Positions 1-36,760 of a stretch of 36,760 nucleotides of DNA are shown piece by piece. The DNA lies in the IMG/VR virus record IMGVR_UViG_3300002143_000233, positions 1 through 36,760 of that record. One strand, given 5' to 3'. Within the stretch, counting starts at the first letter, position 1; every line of letters starts with the position of its first letter. Under the pieces are notes generated by a model. That model did no database searches, was not told the origin of the DNA, and saw only the letters and a program-made list of their open reading frames with translations. Source of the DNA: a virus. Made by a program: the position numbers and the translations under genes.

Positions 1-366
1 TGATAAGTTACCGTCACCAATAAAAGACCCTAGCAAATAACCTTTAGCATAATCAGAGGAATATATATCAATATTTTTATCATTGAAATTAGAATGATTG
101 TTAATTATTACTTTATCTTCAGAAGTAATATCCTTTGCTTCTTTCCAGCCATCAACAGTCAATATTTGATGGTTTGGAGTGCATTTTAATTCACGACCAG
201 AAGCAAAAGCCAATTTAACAACTTCTTTATTCCCTGTTTTCCAAAACCCTTTTTCATTTGAAAAATATACCTTGCCATCTACCAAGGCATTAAATTGTTT
301 TCCGATTAACTCAGAAACTATATCAGTGCCATCTTTTGTAGTAATAATAGTGTCTGCTGTAACGCA
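1..366 (-). other. Intein N-terminal splicing region and start of a LAGLIDADG-type endonuclease; partial
   Basis: Begins at Cys321 of the reductase frame (codon 364-366). 'CVTADTIITTKDG' matches intein block A, with Cys1 as splicing nucleophile. 'GRELKCTPNHQILTVDGW' (about 378-394) matches block B, with the TPNH threonine and histidine that assist the first acyl shift. 'YLLGSFIGDGNLS' at the very edge resembles the first LAGLIDADG motif (block C), so a homing endonuclease domain probably follows. The remaining blocks lie outside the window. Confidence 0.88.
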
Positions 367-1326
367 GGGATTAAATAAAGATTCAGTACTATGACTCCAA
401 ATAATTCCCGGCTCTCCAAATTGTCTAGTAGATTCGAATAAACGATGATAGTCTTCTCTTCCTGTACTGTTTTTTAACAATAATGCACTATTATTAGATC
501 TTCCTCTTTGTGGATTTTCATAATACCAATCTCCAATTTTAGCATTAAGCATCAATTCATCATCGACACTAAACATAGCAAGACACGCACTTCTGCGCAC
601 CCCACCTGACAATACAGCATCAGAAGCATGCATTATTATGTCGTATGCATCAATTGTTCTTAATTTTTTATTGCCAGAATCAACAGACTTGTTAAAAACT
701 TGACGAATTTTTTCTAATGCTCTTTCAAGTGGTTCGTGTCCGGGTGCTTTGCCTACACCATAAGATAAAGATGAACCTTTTGGTCTAATAGCAGAATAAT
801 CAAAAGTTACTTTTTTGCCATAAAAATCAGAATATTCTGAATGCGGACTATAGCTTGCAGTTAATACTCCAAGAGCATCTGACCATCCTTCTATACTATC
901 ATCAATTTTATAAATTTTTTCTTCTGATAAATCAGTTGATTTAGTAATGTGAAACTCTGGTAATTTATCAACATGATGTCGTTGAACAGAGAATCCGGTT
1001 CCGCAACCATTAAGAAGAAGCCAAGTACATTCCTGAAAAAATCTAGGTCTATCACAGTAAGAACTAATGCAATTATAAATTTTTGCATTACGCTTTAAAA
1101 TTGGATCTCCACCAAATTGCAAAGCTCTTTGGCTACCAAGTGCTACTTTATTGTGAACATGTTCAAATGCCCAATTAATGTCATCTGCTACCATTGGGTA
1201 TTTTGTAAGATGCATGCCTTTAACACGCTCAATAGCTTCGTGCCAAGTTTCTCTTCTTTTTTTAGTTTTATCGTATCGTGCATAACGACTTGCAAAAGTA
1301 TAATCCGACAATGCTTTAGTTGACAT
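1..1326 (-). CDS. nrdJ: Class II (adenosylcobalamin-dependent) ribonucleoside-triphosphate reductase, N-extein plus intein start; partial
   Basis: Reduces ribonucleotides to deoxyribonucleotides for phage DNA synthesis. The frame is open from an ATG at 1324-1326 to the window edge (442 codons). A GGAG ribosome site lies just upstream (TGGAGTTTGAATG). Residues 1-320 look like the monomeric RTPR type: 'YNCISSYCDRPRFF' holds the first redox cysteine (C86), followed by 'LLLNGCGTGFSVQ' (about 104-115), 'IRPKGSSLSYGVGK' (about 180-193) and 'SGGVRRSACLAMF' (about 240-252). After 'SLFNP' (316-320) the reductase stops matching and an intein begins at Cys321. The catalytic cysteine of the 'NPC' motif is expected as the first C-extein residue outside the window. 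Because the gene runs off the left edge, its length and the intein's completeness cannot be judged. Calling it class II RTPR rather than another class II type is from motif recall. Confidence 0.87.
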   Translation of the reverse strand, partial: MSTKALSDYTFASRYARYDKTKKRRETWHEAIERVKGMHLTKYPMVADDINWAFEHVHNKVALGSQRALQFGGDPILKRNAKIYNCISSYCDRPRFFQECTWLLLNGCGTGFSVQRHHVDKLPEFHITKSTDLSEEKIYKIDDSIEGWSDALGVLTASYSPHSEYSDFYGKKVTFDYSAIRPKGSSLSYGVGKAPGHEPLERALEKIRQVFNKSVDSGNKKLRTIDAYDIIMHASDAVLSGGVRRSACLAMFSVDDELMLNAKIGDWYYENPQRGRSNNSALLLKNSTGREDYHRLFESTRQFGEPGIIWSHSTESLFNPCVTADTIITTKDGTDIVSELIGKQFNALVDGKVYFSNEKGFWKTGNKEVVKLAFASGRELKCTPNHQILTVDGWKEAKDITSEDKVIINNHSNFNDKNIDIYSSDYAKGYLLGSFIGDGNLS

Positions 1327-4628: not shown

Positions 4629-4964
4629 TTACTTTTCAGATTTTTTGTCACCATATTTTTTTTCTATAAGTTCCCAAACATCTTTTGCTAATATTTTTGC
4701 TGCAACAGGTTTTTGAACAGGTCCAGTTGGCGCACCTCCACCACCCATAGCTGGTGGCATGCCACCACCACCGCCTCCCCCACCGCCCATAGCTGGTGGG
4801 GGCGCACCTCCACCCATAGCTGCTGGTGGCATACCGCCACCGGGAGGAGGGGCTGCTTCTGGTGGCATGCCTCCACCGGGAGGTGCTGCTCCTGCTGCTG
4901 GAGGAGGAGTAGCTTCCATAAAGATACTGCTTCGTACTTTAATAAATTCTAAAAATGTTTGCAT
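4629..4964 (-). CDS. Gly/Pro/Met/Ala-rich low-complexity protein with capsid-targeting-like N-terminus
   Basis: 111 residues in three parts: an amphipathic start 'MQTFLEFIKVRSSIF'; a repeat region (about 17-82) of 'PPGGGMPPEA', 'AMGGGAPPPA' and 'GGGGGMPPAM' type units; and a short charged tail (about 83-111, 'AKDVWELIEKKYGDKKSEK') that could fold as a helix. The function is unknown. The minus-strand reading is preferred over the overlapping plus-strand poly-proline frame because its start and tail look like normal protein, and because a perfect TATAAATA lies four bases before the ATG. The N-terminus resembles the T4 capsid-targeting sequence (MKTYQEFIAE), so an internal head protein is possible. 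No Shine-Dalgarno is visible, as at several other genes here with similar starts. Confidence 0.7.
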   Translation of the reverse strand: MQTFLEFIKVRSSIFMEATPPPAAGAAPPGGGMPPEAAPPPGGGMPPAAMGGGAPPPAMGGGGGGGGGMPPAMGGGGAPTGPVQKPVAAKILAKDVWELIEKKYGDKKSEK

Positions 4965-5192: not shown

Positions 5193-5663
5193 ATGATTAA
5201 ATTTTCAGAATATATAAATTTGAAAGAACAAGAAGGAGTAGACTCTACATTTGTCGGCAATGTAGACTCAAACACTGCTAAATCCCCTGTTCCACAACGA
5301 TTGATCAGTCGGCAACAATCATTTGATCAGAAACAATTGCGACAGACTAGCGAAAAATGGAGCATGAGCAAAGAAGAAGTCATAAAACTTTGGCAAGGAC
5401 TTCCTCTAGGAACGCCTATCGCAATGAAACCAGTCGATAGCGACCACAAAGGTTCGACCTTTAGTGAAGACGCTATTCGCATAACTGGCAGCACAGAATT
5501 TATAAAATCTGTAATTTCTAGGCTAAAAGAATTTTTAAAATACGAGAACGAAAATACAAAATTAAATATTTCTTTTAGAGAAACATCTTCTCCAAGTCTC
5601 GAAGAAGAAGGTATGGGTAAAAAATCTTATGTATTTTATATACAAAGCAAAACACGAGGATAA
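5193..5663 (+). CDS. Hypothetical protein with capsid-targeting-like N-terminus
   Basis: 156 residues, unrecognised. It begins 'MIKFSEYINLKEQEG', similar in pattern to the T4 capsid-targeting sequence; 'LKE|Q' would fit the gp21 protease preference for Leu-x-Glu. Residues 15-60 are polar and Gln/Ser-rich (probably disordered). About 60-155 looks like a small alpha/beta domain ('SKEEVIKLWQGLPLG', 'ITGSTEFIKSVISRLKEFL'). The start has no Shine-Dalgarno but is preceded by ATTAAATACAAAT, a loose match to a late promoter. The next gene starts one base after its stop codon, suggesting co-transcription. Whether it is cleaved or packaged is inference. Confidence 0.7.
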   Translation: MIKFSEYINLKEQEGVDSTFVGNVDSNTAKSPVPQRLISRQQSFDQKQLRQTSEKWSMSKEEVIKLWQGLPLGTPIAMKPVDSDHKGSTFSEDAIRITGSTEFIKSVISRLKEFLKYENENTKLNISFRETSSPSLEEEGMGKKSYVFYIQSKTRG

Positions 5664-5664
5664 A

Positions 5665-5907
5665 ATGGCAGATAATAAAAAAGATAATAAAAAAGTAGAT
5701 TCTGGAATAAAAAGTGCAATTGTCGATATCGCAGACAATTTATCCAAGGTATTCAAAAAATACACAAGACACACAAGAGAAAAAGCATGGAAGGTATTGC
5801 TAGACACAGAAGCGGAAAAAGAAATTAAAAAACTATTGCAAGATCCGAGCAGACCACTTAACATGTTCTCTAAGTTAAATTTCAAGGAATGGTTATCACA
5901 AGGCTAA
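5665..5907 (+). CDS. Small Lys-rich hypothetical protein
   Basis: 80 residues, unrecognised. The start at 5665 is chosen because ACGAGGA lies seven bases upstream; an earlier in-frame ATG at 5629 would overlap the preceding gene. The N-terminus is strongly basic and acidic ('MADNKKDNKKVDSG'), then a helical region ('VKKYTRHTREKAW'-like, 'EKEIKKLLQDP'). It ends with 'FSKLNFKEWLSQG', a C-terminal copy of the 'NFKxWL' pattern seen at the N-termini of other proteins in this window. Probably in one operon with 5193-5663 and the Dda-like helicase, which starts 16 bases later. Confidence 0.65.
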   Translation: MADNKKDNKKVDSGIKSAIVDIADNLSKVFKKYTRHTREKAWKVLLDTEAEKEIKKLLQDPSRPLNMFSKLNFKEWLSQG

Positions 5908-11766: not shown

Positions 11767-12724
11767 ATGAATCGATTAGGAATTTACCCCATTGTTGTGA
11801 CATGTATTTTGAATCCCATGATTTAATTTCATCGACAATACCGTGATGCATTAATTGAATTTTATTCTTATCGCTTTTTAATTCTAATATTTTATCAACA
11901 CACAAGTCAACATTTCTTTCGATAACATTACAATTACGAAAATAATTACTGTAACCAACATCCGTACACACAGGAACACATCCGCAAGCGGATGCTTCCA
12001 ATAATGTACACGGACCTCCTTCCGACTTGGATAGGCACAAAAAAACCTTGCATTCATTGTAAATTTTATTCATATCTTTTAATGTTCTTTTGTTGTTGAA
12101 AGAATCAACATATATTTCTGCGAAATAAATATCTTTATAATTCGATAGCTTATTTTTTACTTCCTGTAAAATAGAATAACCCTTGTGTTCTAATCGCATC
12201 ACGCTTGATGAAAAAAATACAACAAAATCTCTTTGATCGAATGGTTTTTCTATAAAGAAAGTACTCAAATCAACGCCATCGTATGTAAGGTGTATGTTTT
12301 CAAATCCACTTTTAATCATAATTTCGTAGACATATGGATTGTTTACTGAAACACAATTGAATGCTGATATCCTATCTTTTTTAATCATAATGTCATAAGG
12401 AGATAGTACTTCGTTTATAGTAAGTACAACCTTTGTTCCTTTGGAATTATGATGCTTTATAAAATTTACTAAATCTTTAGTTTCAGCAAAATACTGTTCG
12501 TGCAAATGATGAATGATATCGTAATGTTTTTTTTCCACTTGATCGATCCAATTTAAATTTGCGAACCCTATATCGATATCGAATTGTGGAAGATGCTTTC
12601 TGTAATCTATTCCTTTGAAATGAAAACTCCAATTTGGTGTGTCTGCCAAATACAAAACATTTATTTTATTAATCGTATGATCAAGATTTGGTATTATAAT
12701 TTCAGGTAATTTATTTAATTTCAT
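11741..12724 (-). CDS. GT4-family (GT-B fold) glycosyltransferase
   Basis: Retaining-type sugar transferase of 327 residues. The C-terminal half carries the family signature: 'CKVFLCLSKSEGGPCTLLEA' region with the E-x7-E spacing, then 'SACGCVPVCTDVGYS'. The middle holds the linker strand 'DFVVFFSSSVMRLEHKGYSI' typical of the second Rossmann domain. The N-terminal domain is short compared with usual GT4 enzymes (about 350-400 residues in total). It overlaps its upstream neighbour by 14 bases and its downstream neighbour by 26. Substrates are unknown. Confidence 0.86.
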   Translation of the reverse strand: MKLNKLPEIIIPNLDHTINKINVLYLADTPNWSFHFKGIDYRKHLPQFDIDIGFANLNWIDQVEKKHYDIIHHLHEQYFAETKDLVNFIKHHNSKGTKVVLTINEVLSPYDIMIKKDRISAFNCVSVNNPYVYEIMIKSGFENIHLTYDGVDLSTFFIEKPFDQRDFVVFFSSSVMRLEHKGYSILQEVKNKLSNYKDIYFAEIYVDSFNNKRTLKDMNKIYNECKVFLCLSKSEGGPCTLLEASACGCVPVCTDVGYSNYFRNCNVIERNVDLCVDKILELKSDKNKIQLMHHGIVDEIKSWDSKYMSQQWGKFLIDSYEDNSINC

Positions 12725-13010
12725 TATTGGATAAAACTCTAACTATATCGCCAACAGTAGAAAAGTCTTTATTGTCTATAATATCAATTATGGCATCGAT
12801 TGCGTCTTGATTTAAATCAGAAATGTCTCCTAATCCTAATATTTTTTTCTTAAGACTTTCTTTTGTGTAGCCAGATTCTTTTAAACTTTTAATACTAGTA
12901 GACATACCATCCTTGTTGCCTTCTAAGTTCAAAAACTTTAATAATAAGTCCTTATAATGGTCGAACCCACGTCTTTCTTCTAGCCATAATTTAAAATTTG
13001 ATTTGTTCAT
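12711..13010 (-). CDS. Hypothetical protein with capsid-targeting-like N-terminus
   Basis: 99 residues, unrecognised. Starts 'MNKSNFKLWLEERRGFDHY'; 'LEE|R' fits the gp21 protease preference. The rest looks all-helical ('YKDLLLKFLNLEG', 'KESLKKKILGLGDIS', 'DAIDAIIDIIDN'). AAGGGA lies seven to ten bases before the ATG. It leads a minus-strand operon with two glycosyltransferases. Its start is only 32 bases from the divergent gene at 13043, which also begins with an 'NFKxF' pattern, so a shared bidirectional promoter (TATATAAGATA between them) is likely. Confidence 0.68.
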   Translation of the reverse strand: MNKSNFKLWLEERRGFDHYKDLLLKFLNLEGNKDGMSTSIKSLKESGYTKESLKKKILGLGDISDLNQDAIDAIIDIIDNKDFSTVGDIVRVLSNNEIK

Positions 13011-13042
13011 TTTGTCCCTTAGTAGCTCTATATAAGATAGAT

Positions 13043-13843
13043 ATGAAAAACATTATCAGTAATTTTAAAACATTTTTTGAATTTGCCAATTATGGTTTCG
13101 AAGTTCAGACTTCAAAAACTATAGGTGGAACCGTTATGCAAGATGGCGACAAACCTATTAATTACATAGATTCTAATTTAATTGTGGATGAATTGGTTAG
13201 ACATAAATTAAACGATGTAAATCCAGTAAATTTTTGGGAAAATGTTGTTCAATGGGGTTCCGACCCCGGAGCAATTAAATTAGAAATTACACCTCTTGGT
13301 TCGTATAGAGTTGTAATAAGAAAATTGATAAAAGATTTAGTTGGTAATAGTACTTGGATTACAAAGAATGTAATAGATCTCGATGACACATATTCTGGTC
13401 ACAGTGAAATCGCTTACGCTGAAGATTGTTTAGGTATAATCGAAAGTCTCAATAAAGAAAATTTAGATCATGCATCTGCCAACTGCGAAAACTTTGATAA
13501 ACTTGCTTGGAAACTATGGAATAAATGTAAGGCTGTGTTTCCTTCTTATATAATGTTTCCAATAGGCATGAAAAAAATGAGTGAAAATTATTACAAACTC
13601 ATATATGAATTTAAAGGCGGTGGAGTAGAAGCCCCAACAAGATCGAGAGCAGAACAATTTAATATCGATCTTCACTTTAATAAAACTACAGGAATTATAA
13701 AGTCATGGGGATACGATATTGATTCCGATATCAGACAACATAGCTGGAAAGTTCAAATTTCAGATTTCAACGAATGGTTCGCTCCTTCGCAACCAATGGA
13801 TGAAATAATAGCTGTGGTAAATACTTCGTTTATGACATATTAG
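13043..13843 (+). CDS. Hypothetical protein with capsid-targeting-like N-terminus
   Basis: 266 residues, unrecognised. The start at 13043 is preferred to an in-frame ATG at 12998, which lies inside the divergent gene. Begins 'MKNIISNFKTFFEFANYG'. The body is a mixed alpha/beta protein rich in Trp and Tyr with no known catalytic motif; 'GSYRVVIRKLIKDL', 'KGGGVEAPTRSRAEQFNIDL' and 'SWKVQISDFNEWFAP' are the more distinctive parts. No Shine-Dalgarno is seen; CTATATAAGATAGAT precedes the ATG and may be a late promoter. It could be a virion protein, on the basis of the N-terminus only. Confidence 0.65.
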   Translation: MKNIISNFKTFFEFANYGFEVQTSKTIGGTVMQDGDKPINYIDSNLIVDELVRHKLNDVNPVNFWENVVQWGSDPGAIKLEITPLGSYRVVIRKLIKDLVGNSTWITKNVIDLDDTYSGHSEIAYAEDCLGIIESLNKENLDHASANCENFDKLAWKLWNKCKAVFPSYIMFPIGMKKMSENYYKLIYEFKGGGVEAPTRSRAEQFNIDLHFNKTTGIIKSWGYDIDSDIRQHSWKVQISDFNEWFAPSQPMDEIIAVVNTSFMTY

Positions 13844-15985: not shown

Positions 15986-16528
15986 ATGAAAAATTTCAAA
16001 ACATTTTTAGAACAACGAGATCCAGAACTTTACGATGAGATGAATCGTAGGGATTTTTTTAAAAGTGCAGCCGTTCTTGGAATTGGCAGTACTCTTGGTG
16101 GTATTGGTTTGAAAACATTAACAGATCTTGGGGTTGGAGGTAAAAAAATTGAACCTAAAACTAAAAATTTAAATTGGGGAGATAAAAATAGTTATTCGAT
16201 AACTAGAATTGATTATTCTAAAATAGGGGATAATAGCAATTGGAAACCTGATAAAAACACAGAAGGTTGGAAGTATACATCAAATAACTACACTAAAATA
16301 AAAGCAGAAGAAGAAGTCAAAAAATGGGTTGTAAAAGAATTAATCGATAGGGAATCTGATTTTAAATTTAGTGGCGACGGAAAACATACTAAAACTTCAA
16401 AAGAAACAAGGAATCCAGTTAGAATAGGAAGAATATTAGTTCAATCTGAACCTTCAGAAAAAGAAAACTCTTTTATAATTACTGTTATTCACGATAAGCG
16501 ACCTTTTTCTCTTGGGTTCAACAAGTAA
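15986..16528 (+). CDS. Protein with capsid-targeting-like start followed by a twin-arginine motif
   Basis: 180 residues, function unknown. From the first ATG it begins 'MKNFKTFLEQRDPELYDE', matching the 'NFKxF' starts elsewhere here. Residue 19 is a second Met that would begin 'MNRRDFFKSAAVLGIGSTLG', a textbook Tat signal (RR-x-F-F-K then a hydrophobic segment 28-42). Either a Tat-exported protein starting at 16040 or an internal protein starting at 15986 is possible; neither start has a Shine-Dalgarno. The later part (about 55-180) is soluble, with alternating strands ('RIGRILVQSEPSEKENSFII'). TATAAATT abuts the first ATG. Confidence 0.65.
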   Translation: MKNFKTFLEQRDPELYDEMNRRDFFKSAAVLGIGSTLGGIGLKTLTDLGVGGKKIEPKTKNLNWGDKNSYSITRIDYSKIGDNSNWKPDKNTEGWKYTSNNYTKIKAEEEVKKWVVKELIDRESDFKFSGDGKHTKTSKETRNPVRIGRILVQSEPSEKENSFIITVIHDKRPFSLGFNK

Positions 16529-17155: not shown

Positions 17156-18460
17156 ATGATTAAGTTCATTTCAGACATAGTTTCGATTAGCGGTACTTCG
17201 AGTACTTTTTATATAAGTCTAGAAAATGATTCGATTGACTTTACAAACTCTGAAACAAGGCAAATTTTGCGTATTTGTTCTTCTGAGGGAGAATGTAGCA
17301 TTCCGATAGAGATAAAGGAATTACCGCTGCTTATTGAGGTTCTAAAAGGCACTGTATTATCAAAGCAATCAAAGGTAGTTGCGTGGAACTGGAAAGACTT
17401 CGTTTCTTATGTTTCATTTCATTTTGGGAAGTTAGTTGAATTTCAAGCTGTAGTACTTGATTTAAAGATTATCGAATCGTATTTTTTCATCAAACAAGAA
17501 AAACCAGTTAACTATTTGTCTGCTTTGATTCGTTTTAAGAAATTAAAGACAGATAAAGATTGGGAAAAGTTTTACAATATATATAATTCTGTTTATTTGC
17601 CTTTAATCACTTTGGTAGTTCCTACGATGGAAAACACTCCTTTACTTGATTGTGAGCTTAAGGATAGGGTATATGCTCATTATTCCATAAACGGACAAGA
17701 CAATGGCAGAATGCTATGTTCTAACGCAAGGATCAAAGGTTATAACCCTCACACGCTATCAAAAGATCAAAAAGGTAAATATAAACCATGCGTTCCTTAT
17801 AATGTATTTTTGAATTTTGATTTTAGAAGCATGGAAGTTGCGGTATTGGCTTATCTGGCTAATGACGAAAAGTTATTAGAATTGATTCAAGCACCAGATA
17901 TTTATTCAAGTATATTTGTGGCTATAACCAATAGCGTTGCAGATGACAATTCTAAGATTTTAGCGAAAAAAATATTTTTACCGACTATATATGGCATGTC
18001 GGCACGGACTCTTGCTGAACAAGCGGATATCCAATTATCTCTTGCCGAACAAATTTGTAGCAATATAAATAAAATATTTTTTAAATCTGTAAATTATGTC
18101 AAAGGCTTCGTGTCTTTGGCTGAATCTCAAGGAACAATAAGTGATTATTTTGGCAAGAGAAGAACATTTACTGAAAATTTCTATAAGGCTCGCAATTTTT
18201 GTATTCAATCACCTGCATCATTAATTTGTTTAGAAAAATTAGTTCAGTTATGGAAAAAAATACAGCATAAGACTAGAATTTGTTATCATGTACATGATGG
18301 TTATTATGTATATGCACAAGATGATAATTGGAAAGAAGTGGCTATTGAAGCGAAAAAGGTTCTTGTTAGTGAATCGCAAATATGTCCCGGCATGAGATTG
18401 AGAGTGGCTTGTCATGGGGGGACTAACTTAAATAAACTGAAGTCACTCGAAAAGCGATGA
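17156..18460 (+). CDS. polA: Family A DNA polymerase with degenerate exonuclease domain
   Basis: Probable replicative polymerase, 434 residues. Motif A 'LNFDFRSMEVAVLAYL' gives D222 and E227; motif B 'KILAKKIFLPTIYGMS' gives K271 (E. coli K758) and Y279 (Y766); the motif 6 glutamine is Q351; motif C 'CYHVHDGYYV' gives H380 and D381. Deviations: Leu275 at the Phe762 position, Lys267 at Arg754, Gly382 in place of the Glu of 'HDE'. Residues 70-125 ('VVAWNWKDFVSYV', 'VLDLKIIESYF') look like a 3'-5' exonuclease domain lacking the first DxE pair, so proofreading is unlikely. No 5' nuclease domain is present. A hairpin and AGGGA precede the ATG. It is followed at four bases by the next gene. Confidence 0.9.
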   Translation: MIKFISDIVSISGTSSTFYISLENDSIDFTNSETRQILRICSSEGECSIPIEIKELPLLIEVLKGTVLSKQSKVVAWNWKDFVSYVSFHFGKLVEFQAVVLDLKIIESYFFIKQEKPVNYLSALIRFKKLKTDKDWEKFYNIYNSVYLPLITLVVPTMENTPLLDCELKDRVYAHYSINGQDNGRMLCSNARIKGYNPHTLSKDQKGKYKPCVPYNVFLNFDFRSMEVAVLAYLANDEKLLELIQAPDIYSSIFVAITNSVADDNSKILAKKIFLPTIYGMSARTLAEQADIQLSLAEQICSNINKIFFKSVNYVKGFVSLAESQGTISDYFGKRRTFTENFYKARNFCIQSPASLICLEKLVQLWKKIQHKTRICYHVHDGYYVYAQDDNWKEVAIEAKKVLVSESQICPGMRLRVACHGGTNLNKLKSLEKR

Positions 18461-20672: not shown

Positions 20673-21173
20673 ATGTTAGACGAAATTCCGAACGAATGCA
20701 TTGTTGTAGTGGTGTGTGGCAAAGATGTCAGGTTAGATCCAGAGTACATGAAATTTAACGAAGCCAATATCAATAAATTCATGGAACAAGAGTATGGATG
20801 GATTGATTACTTTGGAAAACAACTTGAATTGGCCCAAAAGGAATTAGCCTTGGCATCATTAGAATATGATGTTTTGTATAACGAAAAATACATTCAAGTT
20901 AAAGATCAGGGAAATTCCGACACATATTCAAAGGCGAAAGCTCAAACAGATACTGTAGTTATCGATAGTTATAAAAAAATGCTTTCAAAGCGAGAAACGG
21001 TTGGGCTTATAAAGGCATATCTCAGAGCTTGGGATAGGAATCACGATAATGCTCAAAATCGTGGTCATACTCTTAGGAAAGAATTCGAAAAGCTGAAGGA
21101 TACTAGGTCGGCTGATTTTCCAGATGTAAGTTACAATCAAGATAAGCAAATAGAGGACATATTAAATGGCTGA
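20673..21173 (+). CDS. UvsY-like recombination mediator (tentative)
   Basis: 166 residues. From about 25 to 150 it resembles T4 UvsY in layout: 'MKFNEANINKFMEQEYGWID' region, a helical 'AQKELALASLEYDVLYNEKY' stretch, 'AKAQTDTVVIDSYKKML', and 'AYLRAWDRNHDNAQNRGHTL', comparable with UvsY's end ('LDFCSGALDAIKSRGFAIKH'). UvsY loads UvsX onto gp32-covered DNA; both partners are encoded at 28388-30701. It is longer than T4 UvsY (137). The ribosome site is ACGAGG. The end overlaps the next gene by eight bases. Recognition is by recalled pattern, not a search. Confidence 0.6.
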   Translation: MLDEIPNECIVVVVCGKDVRLDPEYMKFNEANINKFMEQEYGWIDYFGKQLELAQKELALASLEYDVLYNEKYIQVKDQGNSDTYSKAKAQTDTVVIDSYKKMLSKRETVGLIKAYLRAWDRNHDNAQNRGHTLRKEFEKLKDTRSADFPDVSYNQDKQIEDILNG

Positions 21174-31191: not shown

Positions 31192-32139
31192 TTAAATCAT
31201 TGATTTGATTTGTTCGTAAGCGTGTTGTCTACTTTCTAAATTTGAAAACCCAATAATTTTTTTTGAAATTAAATTTCGCTTGATTCTTTTAATCAGCCAA
31301 TTTTTAATTTCTGTTAATTCTTTGGTTAATTCGTAATCATCATTCATCTTCAGAAGAGTAAAGAAATCATGAGGATCAAGCCAGCAATAGCCAGACATGT
31401 AATCGTTTTCCTTATATGCATCTGGCATTCCTTTTACGATGCAACATTCGCAAAAATGTAAAATCAGTTTAATCCAATTCCTCATATCATCTGAATTGTT
31501 GCAGCAATCATTGTCCATTATTCTGAATTCTATTGTGTCTCTTCTTTTGTTTTTTTTATGATAAGTATTCAAGCTGTAATATTTGACTACTCCGAAAAGA
31601 TTCATTAATTCATTTAATGTATAGAAGCTATAATTTACTTTAAACATTTTGTTCATACTTACAAACATACAATAGGAATTTAACTTTCTGCAATCCATCA
31701 CAGAATCAAAAAAAATCGGTTCGCATTTGATCCACCAAGTTAAAATGCTCAGTAATTTTTTATCTGTCATATCAGAAACATCAACATGAACATGTACAGA
31801 GCATCTTTTATCGGCAGAAAAATTGTTTTTATCAATCAAGTCAACAACATCACAAACTTTTTCTATGCCATGTGTTCCTTTGAGTACTGGGGATACAATT
31901 TCTATTCCGCAGCTACTATCGGGTTTAACACCCCAATTAGAATTATTGTGATCATTTTGCCATTTGGTTACAACTACATTTGTGCAAAGAGTCTTGCTTA
32001 TTTTACAGGCAACTTCTTCGATTCCTTTTGGCGAAAGTTTATCGTTTAGTGGTTTGTTCAATAAGTCGAAAGCGTTTAATTCGATTTCTACGCCAAAACG
32101 CCTATTACTTTTATAATTTGAAATTTCTTTAGAGTCCAT
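31192..32139 (-). CDS. Amidoligase-family (glutamine-synthetase-fold) enzyme
   Basis: Predicted ATP-dependent enzyme joining a carboxylate to an amine. 315 residues with the family's conserved points: 'RRFGVEIELNAF' (13-24), 'WGVKPDSSCGIEIVSPVLKG' (69-88), 'CSVHVHVDVSD' (113-123) and 'RRDTIEFRIMDND' (199-211). These match the phage-type amidoligase_2 family, for which peptide or cell-wall amino-acid ligation has been proposed but rarely shown. No gamma-glutamyl cyclotransferase partner, often found beside such genes, is visible here. It is Cys-rich (about 14), unusual for the family as I know it. Upstream lie about 130 AT-rich bases and the divergent gene at 32269. Confidence 0.8.
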   Translation of the reverse strand: MDSKEISNYKSNRRFGVEIELNAFDLLNKPLNDKLSPKGIEEVACKISKTLCTNVVVTKWQNDHNNSNWGVKPDSSCGIEIVSPVLKGTHGIEKVCDVVDLIDKNNFSADKRCSVHVHVDVSDMTDKKLLSILTWWIKCEPIFFDSVMDCRKLNSYCMFVSMNKMFKVNYSFYTLNELMNLFGVVKYYSLNTYHKKNKRRDTIEFRIMDNDCCNNSDDMRNWIKLILHFCECCIVKGMPDAYKENDYMSGYCWLDPHDFFTLLKMNDDYELTKELTEIKNWLIKRIKRNLISKKIIGFSNLESRQHAYEQIKSMI

Positions 32140-33787: not shown

Positions 33788-35777
33788 AATACTTCCAACA
33801 TCATCTTTTAAATTAGGCAAATGGGATTACGAGTTTTTTAACCCTGTTCAAAGTAGGGTCTGTGAAATATATGAGTCAGACAACAGCAGCATAATAGCAG
33901 CTTCGACATCGTCTGGAAAAACCACCATTGCCGAAATGTATCTCGCACATGAAATCAAGCAACGAAAAGGCAAAGGAATGTTCTTAGTTCCTTTGAAGGC
34001 TCTGGCTCAAGAAAAAATAGATCAATGGTCGAGTCCTAATCATTTTTTTAGTGAATTTAAAATAAGTATATGCACTGGTGATTACAGACTTGATAAATCA
34101 CGCATGAATGAATTGCGTGAGGCCGATCTTATTATTATGACATCTGAAATGTTAAATCATAAAGTAAGAAATGTTGGAAGCGATGAAAATGATTGGCTTA
34201 AATCGGTTGGAACAATAGTCTGTGATGAATCACATTTGCTTACTGTTCCGAACAGAGGAGATCATTTAGAAATAGGATTTATAAATTTTTCTAGAGCTAA
34301 TCCAAATGGAAGATTTGTGTGTCTTTCTGCGACAATGCCAAATGTTGATGAAATTGGCGAGTGGATATCCGAGTCTTTGACTCATAAGCCAACATATGTT
34401 TTAAAATCTCAATATAGACCAGTACCACTTAATATACATTATGAGATTTATGACAATTACTCTAGAACTTATGATTCGTTAGAGCTTGAAAAAGTTAAAC
34501 AAGCACTTAAAATTGTAAGATCACATCCAGAAGATAAATTTTTGATTTTCGCTCACACCAAAAAAACTGGCGAAAAAATGGTTCAAATGTTGAATGCTTA
34601 TAAAATAGATGGAGAATTTCACAATGCAGATTTAACTAAAGAAAAAAGAATAGAGTTGGAAAACAAATTTAGAAACGATAAAAATTTCAAAGTCATAGTA
34701 GCAACATCAACTCTCGCTTGGGGAATTAACGCACCAGCAAGAAGAGTTATCATTCTTGGTATAGAAAGAGCTACCCAAAGAATAGAACCTTATAACATTA
34801 CACAAATGGTAGGCAGAAGCGGAAGATTAGGTATAGACACACAAGGCGATGCGTATGTTTTATTGCCAAGAACTAAATTTACAGAATATAAAAATTATTT
34901 ACAAATACCACAATTAATTAAAAGTCAACTTTTAAATGCATTTGGCACTAAATATAAAACTTTGGCTTTTCATATTACAAGTGAAGTTTGGCATGGAAAT
35001 ATTAAAAATTATAAAGATTTAGAATTGTGGTTTTCAAAATCGTTAGCACATTTTCAAAAAATGAAAATAAATCAAAAGGACTTAGAAGGAACTATTGAAT
35101 TTCTACACAAGAAAAACATTATCAAAATCAATGAAGACGGATCGTATACAGCAACTAAGTTGGCAATGATAAGTTCTAGTTTTTACTTTTCTCCATTCGA
35201 TGTTGCGGACCTTTCCCATAATTTTTACTTTTTGTTTAAAGAAAAAAACTTTGAGAAAAATGATATAAGAATAGCTTTGGCTCTTGGGTATATCGATAGC
35301 AATAAGGCTGGTATAGTATCTAAAAGCGAAGAAGCAGAAATGAATTCGTTTTTCGAAAGTGTTAAGATCATGCCTAATTCTTTTTATTCTGATAAATCTG
35401 CAATAAAAACATCTTATTGTTATTATTGTATGCTTACCGGAAAACGTAATGTGACAATGGCTGGGTATGCTAAAAATTTACAATTTGATTTCGAACGGGT
35501 CGCACAGGTTTTGTATGCAATTTGTAGAGTTACTAAAGATTTTAAAGATAAAAAAGGATTCTTTACGGAGCTAGAAGCAAGAGTTAGATACGGTGTACCT
35601 GCTTATTTGTTGGACCTTTGTAATATTCCAAATATTGGTAAAGTAAGGGCTAAAAAATTATACGACTTTGGAATTAAAAGCAAAGATGACTTCAAGAAAA
35701 CCAACATCGATACATTGGTTAAAATTATAAATTTAAAGAAATCAATTGTCGAAGATGTTTTAAAGTCTTTGGATTAA
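33753..35777 (+). CDS. Hel308/Ski2-like SF2 DNA helicase
   Basis: 674 residues. Walker A 'ASTSSGKT' (50-57), motif Ia 'LVPLKALAQEK', motif II 'VCDESHLL' (157-163, DESH), motif III 'CLSATMPN', motif IV-V 'VIVATSTLAWGINAPARRV', motif VI 'QMVGRSGRLG', then a winged-helix-like and ratchet region, and a C-terminal helix-hairpin-helix 'CNIPNIGKVRAKKLYDFGI' (about 625-643). That order matches Hel308/HelQ enzymes, which unwind lagging-strand forks in archaea and eukaryotes. It is close in size to archaeal Hel308 (about 700). No good Shine-Dalgarno; translation probably depends on the overlapping upstream gene. It ends four bases into the convergent gene. Confidence 0.85.
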   Translation: MSKIIQITDQNEILPTSSFKLGKWDYEFFNPVQSRVCEIYESDNSSIIAASTSSGKTTIAEMYLAHEIKQRKGKGMFLVPLKALAQEKIDQWSSPNHFFSEFKISICTGDYRLDKSRMNELREADLIIMTSEMLNHKVRNVGSDENDWLKSVGTIVCDESHLLTVPNRGDHLEIGFINFSRANPNGRFVCLSATMPNVDEIGEWISESLTHKPTYVLKSQYRPVPLNIHYEIYDNYSRTYDSLELEKVKQALKIVRSHPEDKFLIFAHTKKTGEKMVQMLNAYKIDGEFHNADLTKEKRIELENKFRNDKNFKVIVATSTLAWGINAPARRVIILGIERATQRIEPYNITQMVGRSGRLGIDTQGDAYVLLPRTKFTEYKNYLQIPQLIKSQLLNAFGTKYKTLAFHITSEVWHGNIKNYKDLELWFSKSLAHFQKMKINQKDLEGTIEFLHKKNIIKINEDGSYTATKLAMISSSFYFSPFDVADLSHNFYFLFKEKNFEKNDIRIALALGYIDSNKAGIVSKSEEAEMNSFFESVKIMPNSFYSDKSAIKTSYCYYCMLTGKRNVTMAGYAKNLQFDFERVAQVLYAICRVTKDFKDKKGFFTELEARVRYGVPAYLLDLCNIPNIGKVRAKKLYDFGIKSKDDFKKTNIDTLVKIINLKKSIVEDVLKSLD

Positions 35778-36760
35778 CGTTTCTTAGTTCTTTTCAATCT
35801 TTCTGAAACATTTCTTATTATATGCTCTTTGTTGAAATATACTTTTTTTCTATCGTTTTGCAAATTATTAGTACGGAATATTATTTTGTTTTTAATATTT
35901 TTAAATGGATCTATCGCACCAAATTCAACGCACTCACAACAAGCAAGGGAACAAGGGCAGTTTTCGGGAATACCGTCGACTCCTAATTTTTCTAATCTTT
36001 GAACAACCAAATCATTAGAATTTTCTTTTTTTTCGCCTATGCTTACATCTATCTTTATATAAGATCCGGCTTTTACTTGTGCTACTTCTCCGCTGTTATT
36101 TATATTTATAAATACTTTTTTGTTATAAGGATTCGATTCTACTTCGGCAGTTATAATTGCGTCACATGATGCTTTTATGAATCCGTTTACTGGACATTCC
36201 AAGCAACCATCTTCGGGAACACACACTATCAAAGTCACTATAGCGCAGTCGATAGGACAAGGTATAGATCCTGCTCCCAAATTTACTCCAGCATATAAGT
36301 TTCCATTTTCATCCCATTCTGGCGTACCAAAAGTAAATTTTCCATCTTTACTATAAATTGGATCAAAGCTAAATTCAGGAAATTCATTTATAGATTCTTC
36401 TGATATTTTCCAAATATGCTTTGGTTCTATTTTGTTTTTTATTAATTGTCCGTATTTGCCTGTTTTTTCAACATAACTTTCTGTGTTTATTTTGTTGTTT
36501 TTATTTAATAAAATATTAGCACATGGAATTGGTGGGCATGTTGCTAAATTTTTTCCGCATTTGTATGTGTATCTTATACACTTGCAACAAGTGCTTGGGC
36601 AGCAGCAGCTACAGCTGCATCCGCAAATGCTAATTGGAGTTTTTACTGTACCTTCTGGGCATCCACCACCGCCACCATCACCGCCACCATCACCGCCACC
36701 ATCACCGCCACCATCACCGCCACCATCACCACCACCATCACCACCACCATCACCACCACC
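35774..36760 (-). CDS. Cys-rich protein with Gly-Gly-Gly-Asp repeat; partial, open at the window edge
   Basis: The frame stays open from the stop at 35774 to the right edge (328 codons seen), so the start is outside the window. In order: seven GGGD units and five Gly (36662-36760); a very Cys-rich segment ('ICGCSCSCCCPSTCCKC', about 36561-36620); a polar stretch; a beta-like domain with paired cysteines ('GSIPCPIDCAIVTLIVCVPE', 'GCLECPVNGF', 'CPCSLACCECVEFG'); and a basic C-terminus ('RNVSERLKRTKKR'). The repeat may be a flexible linker, and the cysteines may bind metal or form disulfides. A virion surface or tail-fibre role is plausible; I do not recognise the family. Confidence 0.75.
   Translation of the reverse strand, partial: GGGDGGGDGGGDGGGDGGGDGGGDGGGDGGGGGCPEGTVKTPISICGCSCSCCCPSTCCKCIRYTYKCGKNLATCPPIPCANILLNKNNKINTESYVEKTGKYGQLIKNKIEPKHIWKISEESINEFPEFSFDPIYSKDGKFTFGTPEWDENGNLYAGVNLGAGSIPCPIDCAIVTLIVCVPEDGCLECPVNGFIKASCDAIITAEVESNPYNKKVFININNSGEVAQVKAGSYIKIDVSIGEKKENSNDLVVQRLEKLGVDGIPENCPCSLACCECVEFGAIDPFKNIKNKIIFRTNNLQNDRKKVYFNKEHIIRNVSERLKRTKKR
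36662..36760. repeat. 12-base tandem repeat coding for Gly-Gly-Gly-Asp
   Basis: On the plus strand seven ATC-ACC-(G/A)CC-ACC units are visible. The three nearest the edge have ACC in the middle position and the four inner ones GCC, so the array expanded from at least two variants. The reading frame is kept (12 bases). It continues past the window. Confidence 0.92.

Follow-up and report, generated by a model that had tools for sequence, protein, structure and literature searches.

Analysis of a 36,760-base virus fragment (hereafter the window), which is T4-like and belongs to a clade of very large phages, showed that a short amphipathic leader of the form F-x-x-[W/F/Y]-[L/I/M] opens five unrelated proteins and closes another, and that in relatives of the window the leader heads about 100 or more unrelated bodies. 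Most probably, this leader is a T4-type capsid-targeting tag that has come to mark tens of proteins which are expressed late and probably ejected. We infer that the tagged proteins are packaged, cleaved and ejected.

The window and its relatives

Family HMMs linked window proteins to T4 gp46, gp47, Dda, UvsW, gp41, gp32 and dCMP deaminase, and also to UvsX-like proteins of other T4-like phages. In viral contigs we found 79 loci related to the window. Longer relatives are G002 (225 kb), G007 (223 kb), G008 (299 kb), G003 (173 kb), G021 (533 kb, of which 400 kb were read) and LR756511.1, an uncultured phage record of 595 kb without annotation. A single simple gene caller of our own, which defines the gene starts in all counts, was run on eight related genomes or contigs, the 595-kb record and six control phages.

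The window also encodes a family A DNA polymerase (17156–18460) adjoining T4-like helicase and recombination genes, and an amidoligase-like enzyme (31192–32139) that is kept in most relatives. At its left end (1–1326, minus strand), a ribonucleotide reductase-like protein, whose B12-dependent insertion domain scored below cut-off, is split by an intein splicing domain. At the opposite end (35774–36760, minus strand), a Gly/Asp repeat protein with a Cys-rich region runs past the end of the window.

Tagged proteins of the window

All six open reading frames, with the termini quoted for them in the initial annotation, are present in the sequence where they had been placed. On the minus strand, a 111-aa Pro/Gly/Ala-rich protein (4629–4964) starts with MQTFLEFIKVR (tag MQTFLEFIKVRSSIFME) and carries TATAAATA just 5′ of its ATG; in relatives, similar Pro-rich tagged proteins adjoin a gp47-like gene. 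It is followed on the plus strand by a 156-aa protein (5193–5663) with the N-terminus MIKFSEYINLKEQ and the tag MIKFSEYINLKE, the tag being found in all six members of this family, and by an 80-aa protein (5665–5907). The latter had been described as ending in a similar NFKEWL segment, and its sequence indeed ends in NFKEWLSQG, with KLNFKEWLSQG as a C-terminal tag.

Two further tagged genes are divergent and separated by an intergenic region at 13011–13042. The minus-strand gene (12711–13010) encodes a 99-aa small helical protein conserved in the clade, with the N-terminus MNKSNFKLWLEER and the tag MNKSNFKLWLEE; the leader is kept in 20/20 aligned relatives and W9 is invariant. On the plus strand, a 266-aa protein (13043–13843) has the N-terminus MKNIISNFKTFFEFA and the tag NFKTFFE, followed by a body that is presumed mature from FANYGF. 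Its ATG lies at 13043, and a longer frame with a TTG start opens at 12998. By a simple pattern, 22 of the 23 relatives aligned to this protein have the leader. Its sequence and length vary between relatives, but F8 and E13, the latter being the Glu that immediately precedes the conserved body, show at least 90% conservation in the 23 sequences. AlphaFold2 models place the leaders apart from the folded bodies: in the 99-aa protein a separate low-confidence helix (residues 4–12) precedes a compact domain, and in the 266-aa protein residues 1–40 are of low confidence except for a helix at 4–13.

The last tagged protein (180 aa, 15986–16528, plus strand) begins with MKNFKTFLEQR (tag MKNFKTFLEQRDPELYDE), has TATATAAATT directly 5′ of its ATG, and continues into a Tat-like signal, NRRDFFKSAAVLGIG. 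The Pfam TAT_signal match to this signal is sub-threshold (E=5e-4; 20.3 bits, cut-off 22.7 bits), and the G017 ortholog retains the signal. If leader and Tat-like signal both work, the injected protein would then be exported by the host to the periplasm.

Apart from this sub-threshold signal and weak matches to the 99-aa and 266-aa proteins, Pfam and PHROGs gave no family for the tagged bodies of the window. PDB fold searches with the bodies of these two proteins returned no significant match, and the 26-residue leader of the 180-aa protein had no hits when searched against cultured phages.

Similarity to the T4 capsid-targeting sequence

In T4 IPIII the first ten residues suffice, with residues 4 and 7 serving targeting and residues 8 and 10 processing (PMC9026906). 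The likeness to this sequence that had been proposed for the window is supported, as the aromatic pair of the leader corresponds to T4 residues 4 and 7 (targeting) and the Glu that follows to residue 10 (processing). The leader profile has F at position 0 in 116/142 families and W, F or Y at +3 in 135/142, and continues with L/I/M and a Glu at about +7 or +8. The motif is followed by a putative gp21-type cleavage site, [LIMF]xE, in 115 of 254 cases (45%) versus 391 of 2776 other N-termini (14%, p=2e-29). A strict L/IxE is present in two of the five window leaders and absent from the other three; the two that had been said to offer Leu-x-Glu were correctly identified (LEE in the 99-aa and LKE in the 156-aa protein). 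At the position aligned with LTE65, after which T4 gp23 is cleaved, the major capsid protein of the clade has INE or MNE, and many leaders end in LNE or INE. The F codons in the family of the 266-aa protein vary (TTT 10, TTC 10), for which reason we rejected an mRNA-level cause of the motif; it is evidently at the protein level that selection acts.

Genome-wide enrichment of the leader

It had also been suggested to look for the same start elsewhere, and this revealed an overwhelming excess in relatives and a weak one inside the window. In the window the leader was detected in 4 of 41 proteins versus ∼1.5 by shuffling, an approximately three-fold excess; the true count is five, since the gene caller missed the start at 4964. 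In relatives (the 595-kb record and contigs of 172–533 kb), ∼6–11% of the proteins open with the leader, three to ten times the chance expectation. A strict pattern, F..[WFY][LIMV] at residues 2–10, was compared with shuffled N-termini and yielded 21 versus 2.3 in G007, 25 versus 3.7 in G002 and 30 versus 3.9 in G008. A looser pattern yielded 37 versus 11.9 in G021 and 69 versus 21 in LR756511. The excess over shuffled N-termini is thus about five- to nine-fold for the strict pattern in the larger relatives and three- to six-fold for the looser one.

In a cross-validation, a profile built from G007/G008 families tagged 36 of 407 unrelated families, compared to a mean of 2.6 (maximum 9) after shuffling and two to four internal hits. 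Altogether 142 families, weak ones included, exceeded the profile threshold, of which 91 are singletons. With the same caller, no leader excess was found in phiKZ, HTVC008M or Microcystis phage Mel-JY01. In T4 the pattern finds just the known internal-protein leaders MKTYQEFIAE and one more, MKTFKEFIKE, and cyanophage P-SSM2 and KVP40 have a few leader-bearing proteins. This distribution among the control phages indicates that the leader is a trait of the T4 superfamily which is strongly expanded in the clade of the window.

Many tagged genes carry late-type promoter boxes near their start codons

T4 and cyanophage late promoters read TATAAATA/NATAAATA (PMC2984593). In the window, a TATATA box lies shortly 5′ of the ATG at 13043, and such a box is found a few bp before the ATG in 16/16 relatives of this gene that were read. 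Considering genes with at least 25 bp of upstream space, a T4-late-type box (TAAATA or TATATA starting 9–14 bp before the ATG) was found at −14 to −9 for 44% of the tagged genes versus 5% of the others. Counting one gene per family, the box precedes 30 of 72 tagged genes (42%) versus 34 of 836 others (4%, p=4e-19). Shine-Dalgarno sites are rarer before tagged genes (24% versus 56%), which are often single units. Some untagged, structural-looking genes also have the late-type box. At the same position the box occurs in 1% of cases in T4 and 0% in KVP40, which marks the near-leaderless layout as a trait of the clade of the window. A box ∼10 bp 5′ of the ATG suggests leaderless late mRNAs and, judged by their promoters, the tagged genes look late-expressed.

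Head genes and a prohead protease in relatives

According to the initial annotation, the proposal would not hold if the genome lacked a matching prohead protease. The window fragment reaches no head genes, and an S77 gp21-type protease was found in its relatives. In G007 and G008 the portal gene is followed, in this order, by genes for a small tagged protein (encoded on the other strand), a 630-aa protein, the S77 protease, a protein in the scaffold position and a T4-type capsid protein. The S77 protease is present in 79 of 80 capsid-gene loci fetched from other contigs. All eight low-GC capsid loci that were listed gene by gene contain a tagged gene between the portal and capsid genes. In G002 itself, whose helicase is 69% identical to that of the window, no gp21 match was found, a gap that we traced to contig ends. 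With its left end, G002 overlaps three contigs that bear head genes (L257, L259 and L260; 95% DNA identity), which ties the head module to the G002 lineage.

Portal genes seem to bear large insertions (at the start of the locus in L239, L243 and L247, and at 59–63 kb in G008). In L239 the sequence resembles an intein (CLVGDTRIRTSDG); in G008 a stretch of ∼1.3 kb interrupts the portal match.

Portability of the tag

An extended leader, F..FLExRDPELxxE, opens five proteins, namely the 180-aa window protein and proteins of L292, L039, L072 and L105. Similarity to the window protein covers only the first 15–22 residues in L292, L039 and L105 and 58 residues in L072, and the bodies are otherwise not significantly similar; the L072 and L105 proteins are weakly alignable to each other. 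In the family of the 80-aa protein, the tag is C-terminal in the window and G021 and N-terminal, more or less intact, in G007, L248, L252, L275 and L276, where the C-terminal end is without a tag. The homology within this family holds with the tags removed (E=4e-7 for an HMM built from the bodies alone and 3e-9 in the reverse comparison). Hence, the tag moves from body to body, and in one family it has also switched ends on the same body.

A Nudix hydrolase family carries a C-terminal tag in four genomes, and in LR756511 three N-tagged genes and a C-tagged Nudix gene lie side by side (473239–474877). The C-terminal tags have no evident cut site. To our knowledge, no C-terminal capsid-packaging tags have been described so far. 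Overall, such tags are few, and we rejected the idea that they match the N-terminal form in frequency: at a threshold of 11 they numbered 16 versus a background of 4, and the C-terminal helices of thioredoxins are false positives among them.

Domains of the tagged proteins

Most of the tagged cargo is without annotated function. Among the exceptions are a G005 protein that combines ArdC-N with a HEIAH motif, C39-type proteases (G021 and LR756511), 2H phosphoesterases with similarity to Acb1 (above cut-off in G021), HAD phosphatases including an RNA-repair type, poly(A)/tRNA nucleotidyltransferases, an alpha/beta hydrolase and a weakly matching phospholipase-A2-like protein. G008 encodes a tagged ART-PolyVal-like protein (below cut-off) and a tagged Arr-like protein (weak, below cut-off) which adjoins an ADP-ribosylglycohydrolase gene. 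An ArdC-domain protein in G021 has no tag, and thus defence-like domains do not invariably come with one. To the extent that domains indicate function, the cargo fits early action on host defences.

Discussion

In the model that we favor, the tag would bind the prohead core (scaffold) late in infection and draw each protein into the prohead, where gp21 would cleave after the Glu and free the mature protein. DNA would be packaged around the freed proteins, which would enter the host with it and, in the first minutes, serve host takeover and counter its defences (anti-restriction, anti-CBASS, ADP-ribosylation, proteolysis, RNA repair). A C-terminal tag, with no obvious cut site, may remain attached, and a number of tagged proteins might belong to the core instead of being effectors that are ejected. 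An extension of this model has, in our judgement, an even chance of being right: a cassette of a late promoter abutting the ATG, a packaging tag and an optional cut site would load ∼20–50 effectors into the head, with the tag working at either end. What is injected (anti-CBASS, anti-restriction, ADP-ribosylation, proteases, RNA repair) could hence be listed from sequence, and a gene would become a new effector by gaining ∼12 codons.

T4 gp67 and gp68 are a model for core proteins that are digested or expelled at maturation, and all tagged proteins might likewise be prohead core or assembly factors that dock on the scaffold and never reach the host. The tagged 110–140-aa protein inside the head gene module and the non-enzymatic appearance of the Pro/Gly-rich tagged protein speak for this reading, which we nevertheless regard as improbable, given too many lineage-specific families (91 of the 142 tagged families are singletons) and the many tagged bodies that are enzymes with defence or RNA-repair domains. 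It is even less probable that the motif docks proteins onto some other machinery of the phage, such as the sliding clamp, the late RNA polymerase or a replication complex. Clamp-binding tails of T4-like phages are short hydrophobic/aromatic peptides, and the C-terminal examples (the 80-aa protein and the Nudix family) could be taken for such tails, as could the conserved family 8 (window 20673–21173), whose FEDYLK/FEDFLK-like C-terminal tails in several relatives (L071, L014 and G002) are reminiscent of a sliding-clamp binding peptide. However, the tag is mostly N-terminal, a docking role is at odds with the conserved E, the cut-site statistics and the late-type promoter bias, and the core replication families (UvsX, gp41-like and gp32-like) are untagged apart from isolated weak hits.

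The detached helix in the AlphaFold2 models and the Tat-like signal of the 180-aa protein would also suit an amphipathic helix for membrane or compartment localisation in the host that is unrelated to the capsid and, in the 180-aa protein, is just the Tat n-region. We consider this very unlikely, as bodies that lack a signal peptide repeatedly bear the +3 aromatic pair with the acidic cut site, and the leader matches the T4 mutagenesis. Chance, or an annotation artefact of AT-rich coding, might be considered from the three-fold excess in the window alone, but is refuted, for practical purposes, by the shuffled and internal controls and the cross-validation, and the same signal is seen in G021 (52% GC) and none in phiKZ.

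If the leader is indeed a capsid-targeting tag, a 12-residue pattern together with the promoter position would identify the packaged proteome of a whole uncultured clade of very large phages, and much of the arsenal that these phages possibly inject into bacteria might be readable from sequence. Such a proteome, mostly without assigned function, would be a natural place to seek counter-defence effectors. Moreover, the targeting sequence, which has been tested in T4 so far, would become a general cargo system, C-terminal tags included, and provide new packaging tags for phage-based protein delivery. Within the literature that it covered, our search found no report of such a tag in very large phages.

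Among known systems, the internal proteins IPI–III of T4 (MKTYQEFIAE) share with the clade a short N-terminal leader with aromatics three apart followed (in the clade, often) by hydrophobic-x-Glu, its presence on otherwise unrelated, variable proteins, and a gp21-type protease and scaffold (here in relatives). In contrast to T4, where a few families carry the leader, the clade has tens of tagged families per genome; Trp is often the second aromatic, the Glu lies one to two residues later, and C-terminal versions, a promoter box just 5′ of the ATG and large enzymes among the cargo are found in the clade. T4 Alt, a head-ejected ADP-ribosyltransferase, has possible counterparts in the tagged ART-like proteins of G008, but these differ in the ART family, being ART-PolyVal and Arr-like, both below cut-off. 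Polyvalent proteins (PMC5512222), described as injected with phage DNA (PMC7824862), likewise combine ArdC-N and ART-PolyVal domains with predicted delivery; whereas each is one giant multidomain polypeptide, the clade has single-domain proteins, each with a short tag. Finally, SPN3US and phiKZ (PMC5694885) are also large phages with many ejected head proteins that are processed after Glu, as ejection and cleavage are predicted in the clade. Unlike the clade, they mostly use long propeptides, often of more than 100 residues, and phiKZ is without a leader excess in our analysis.
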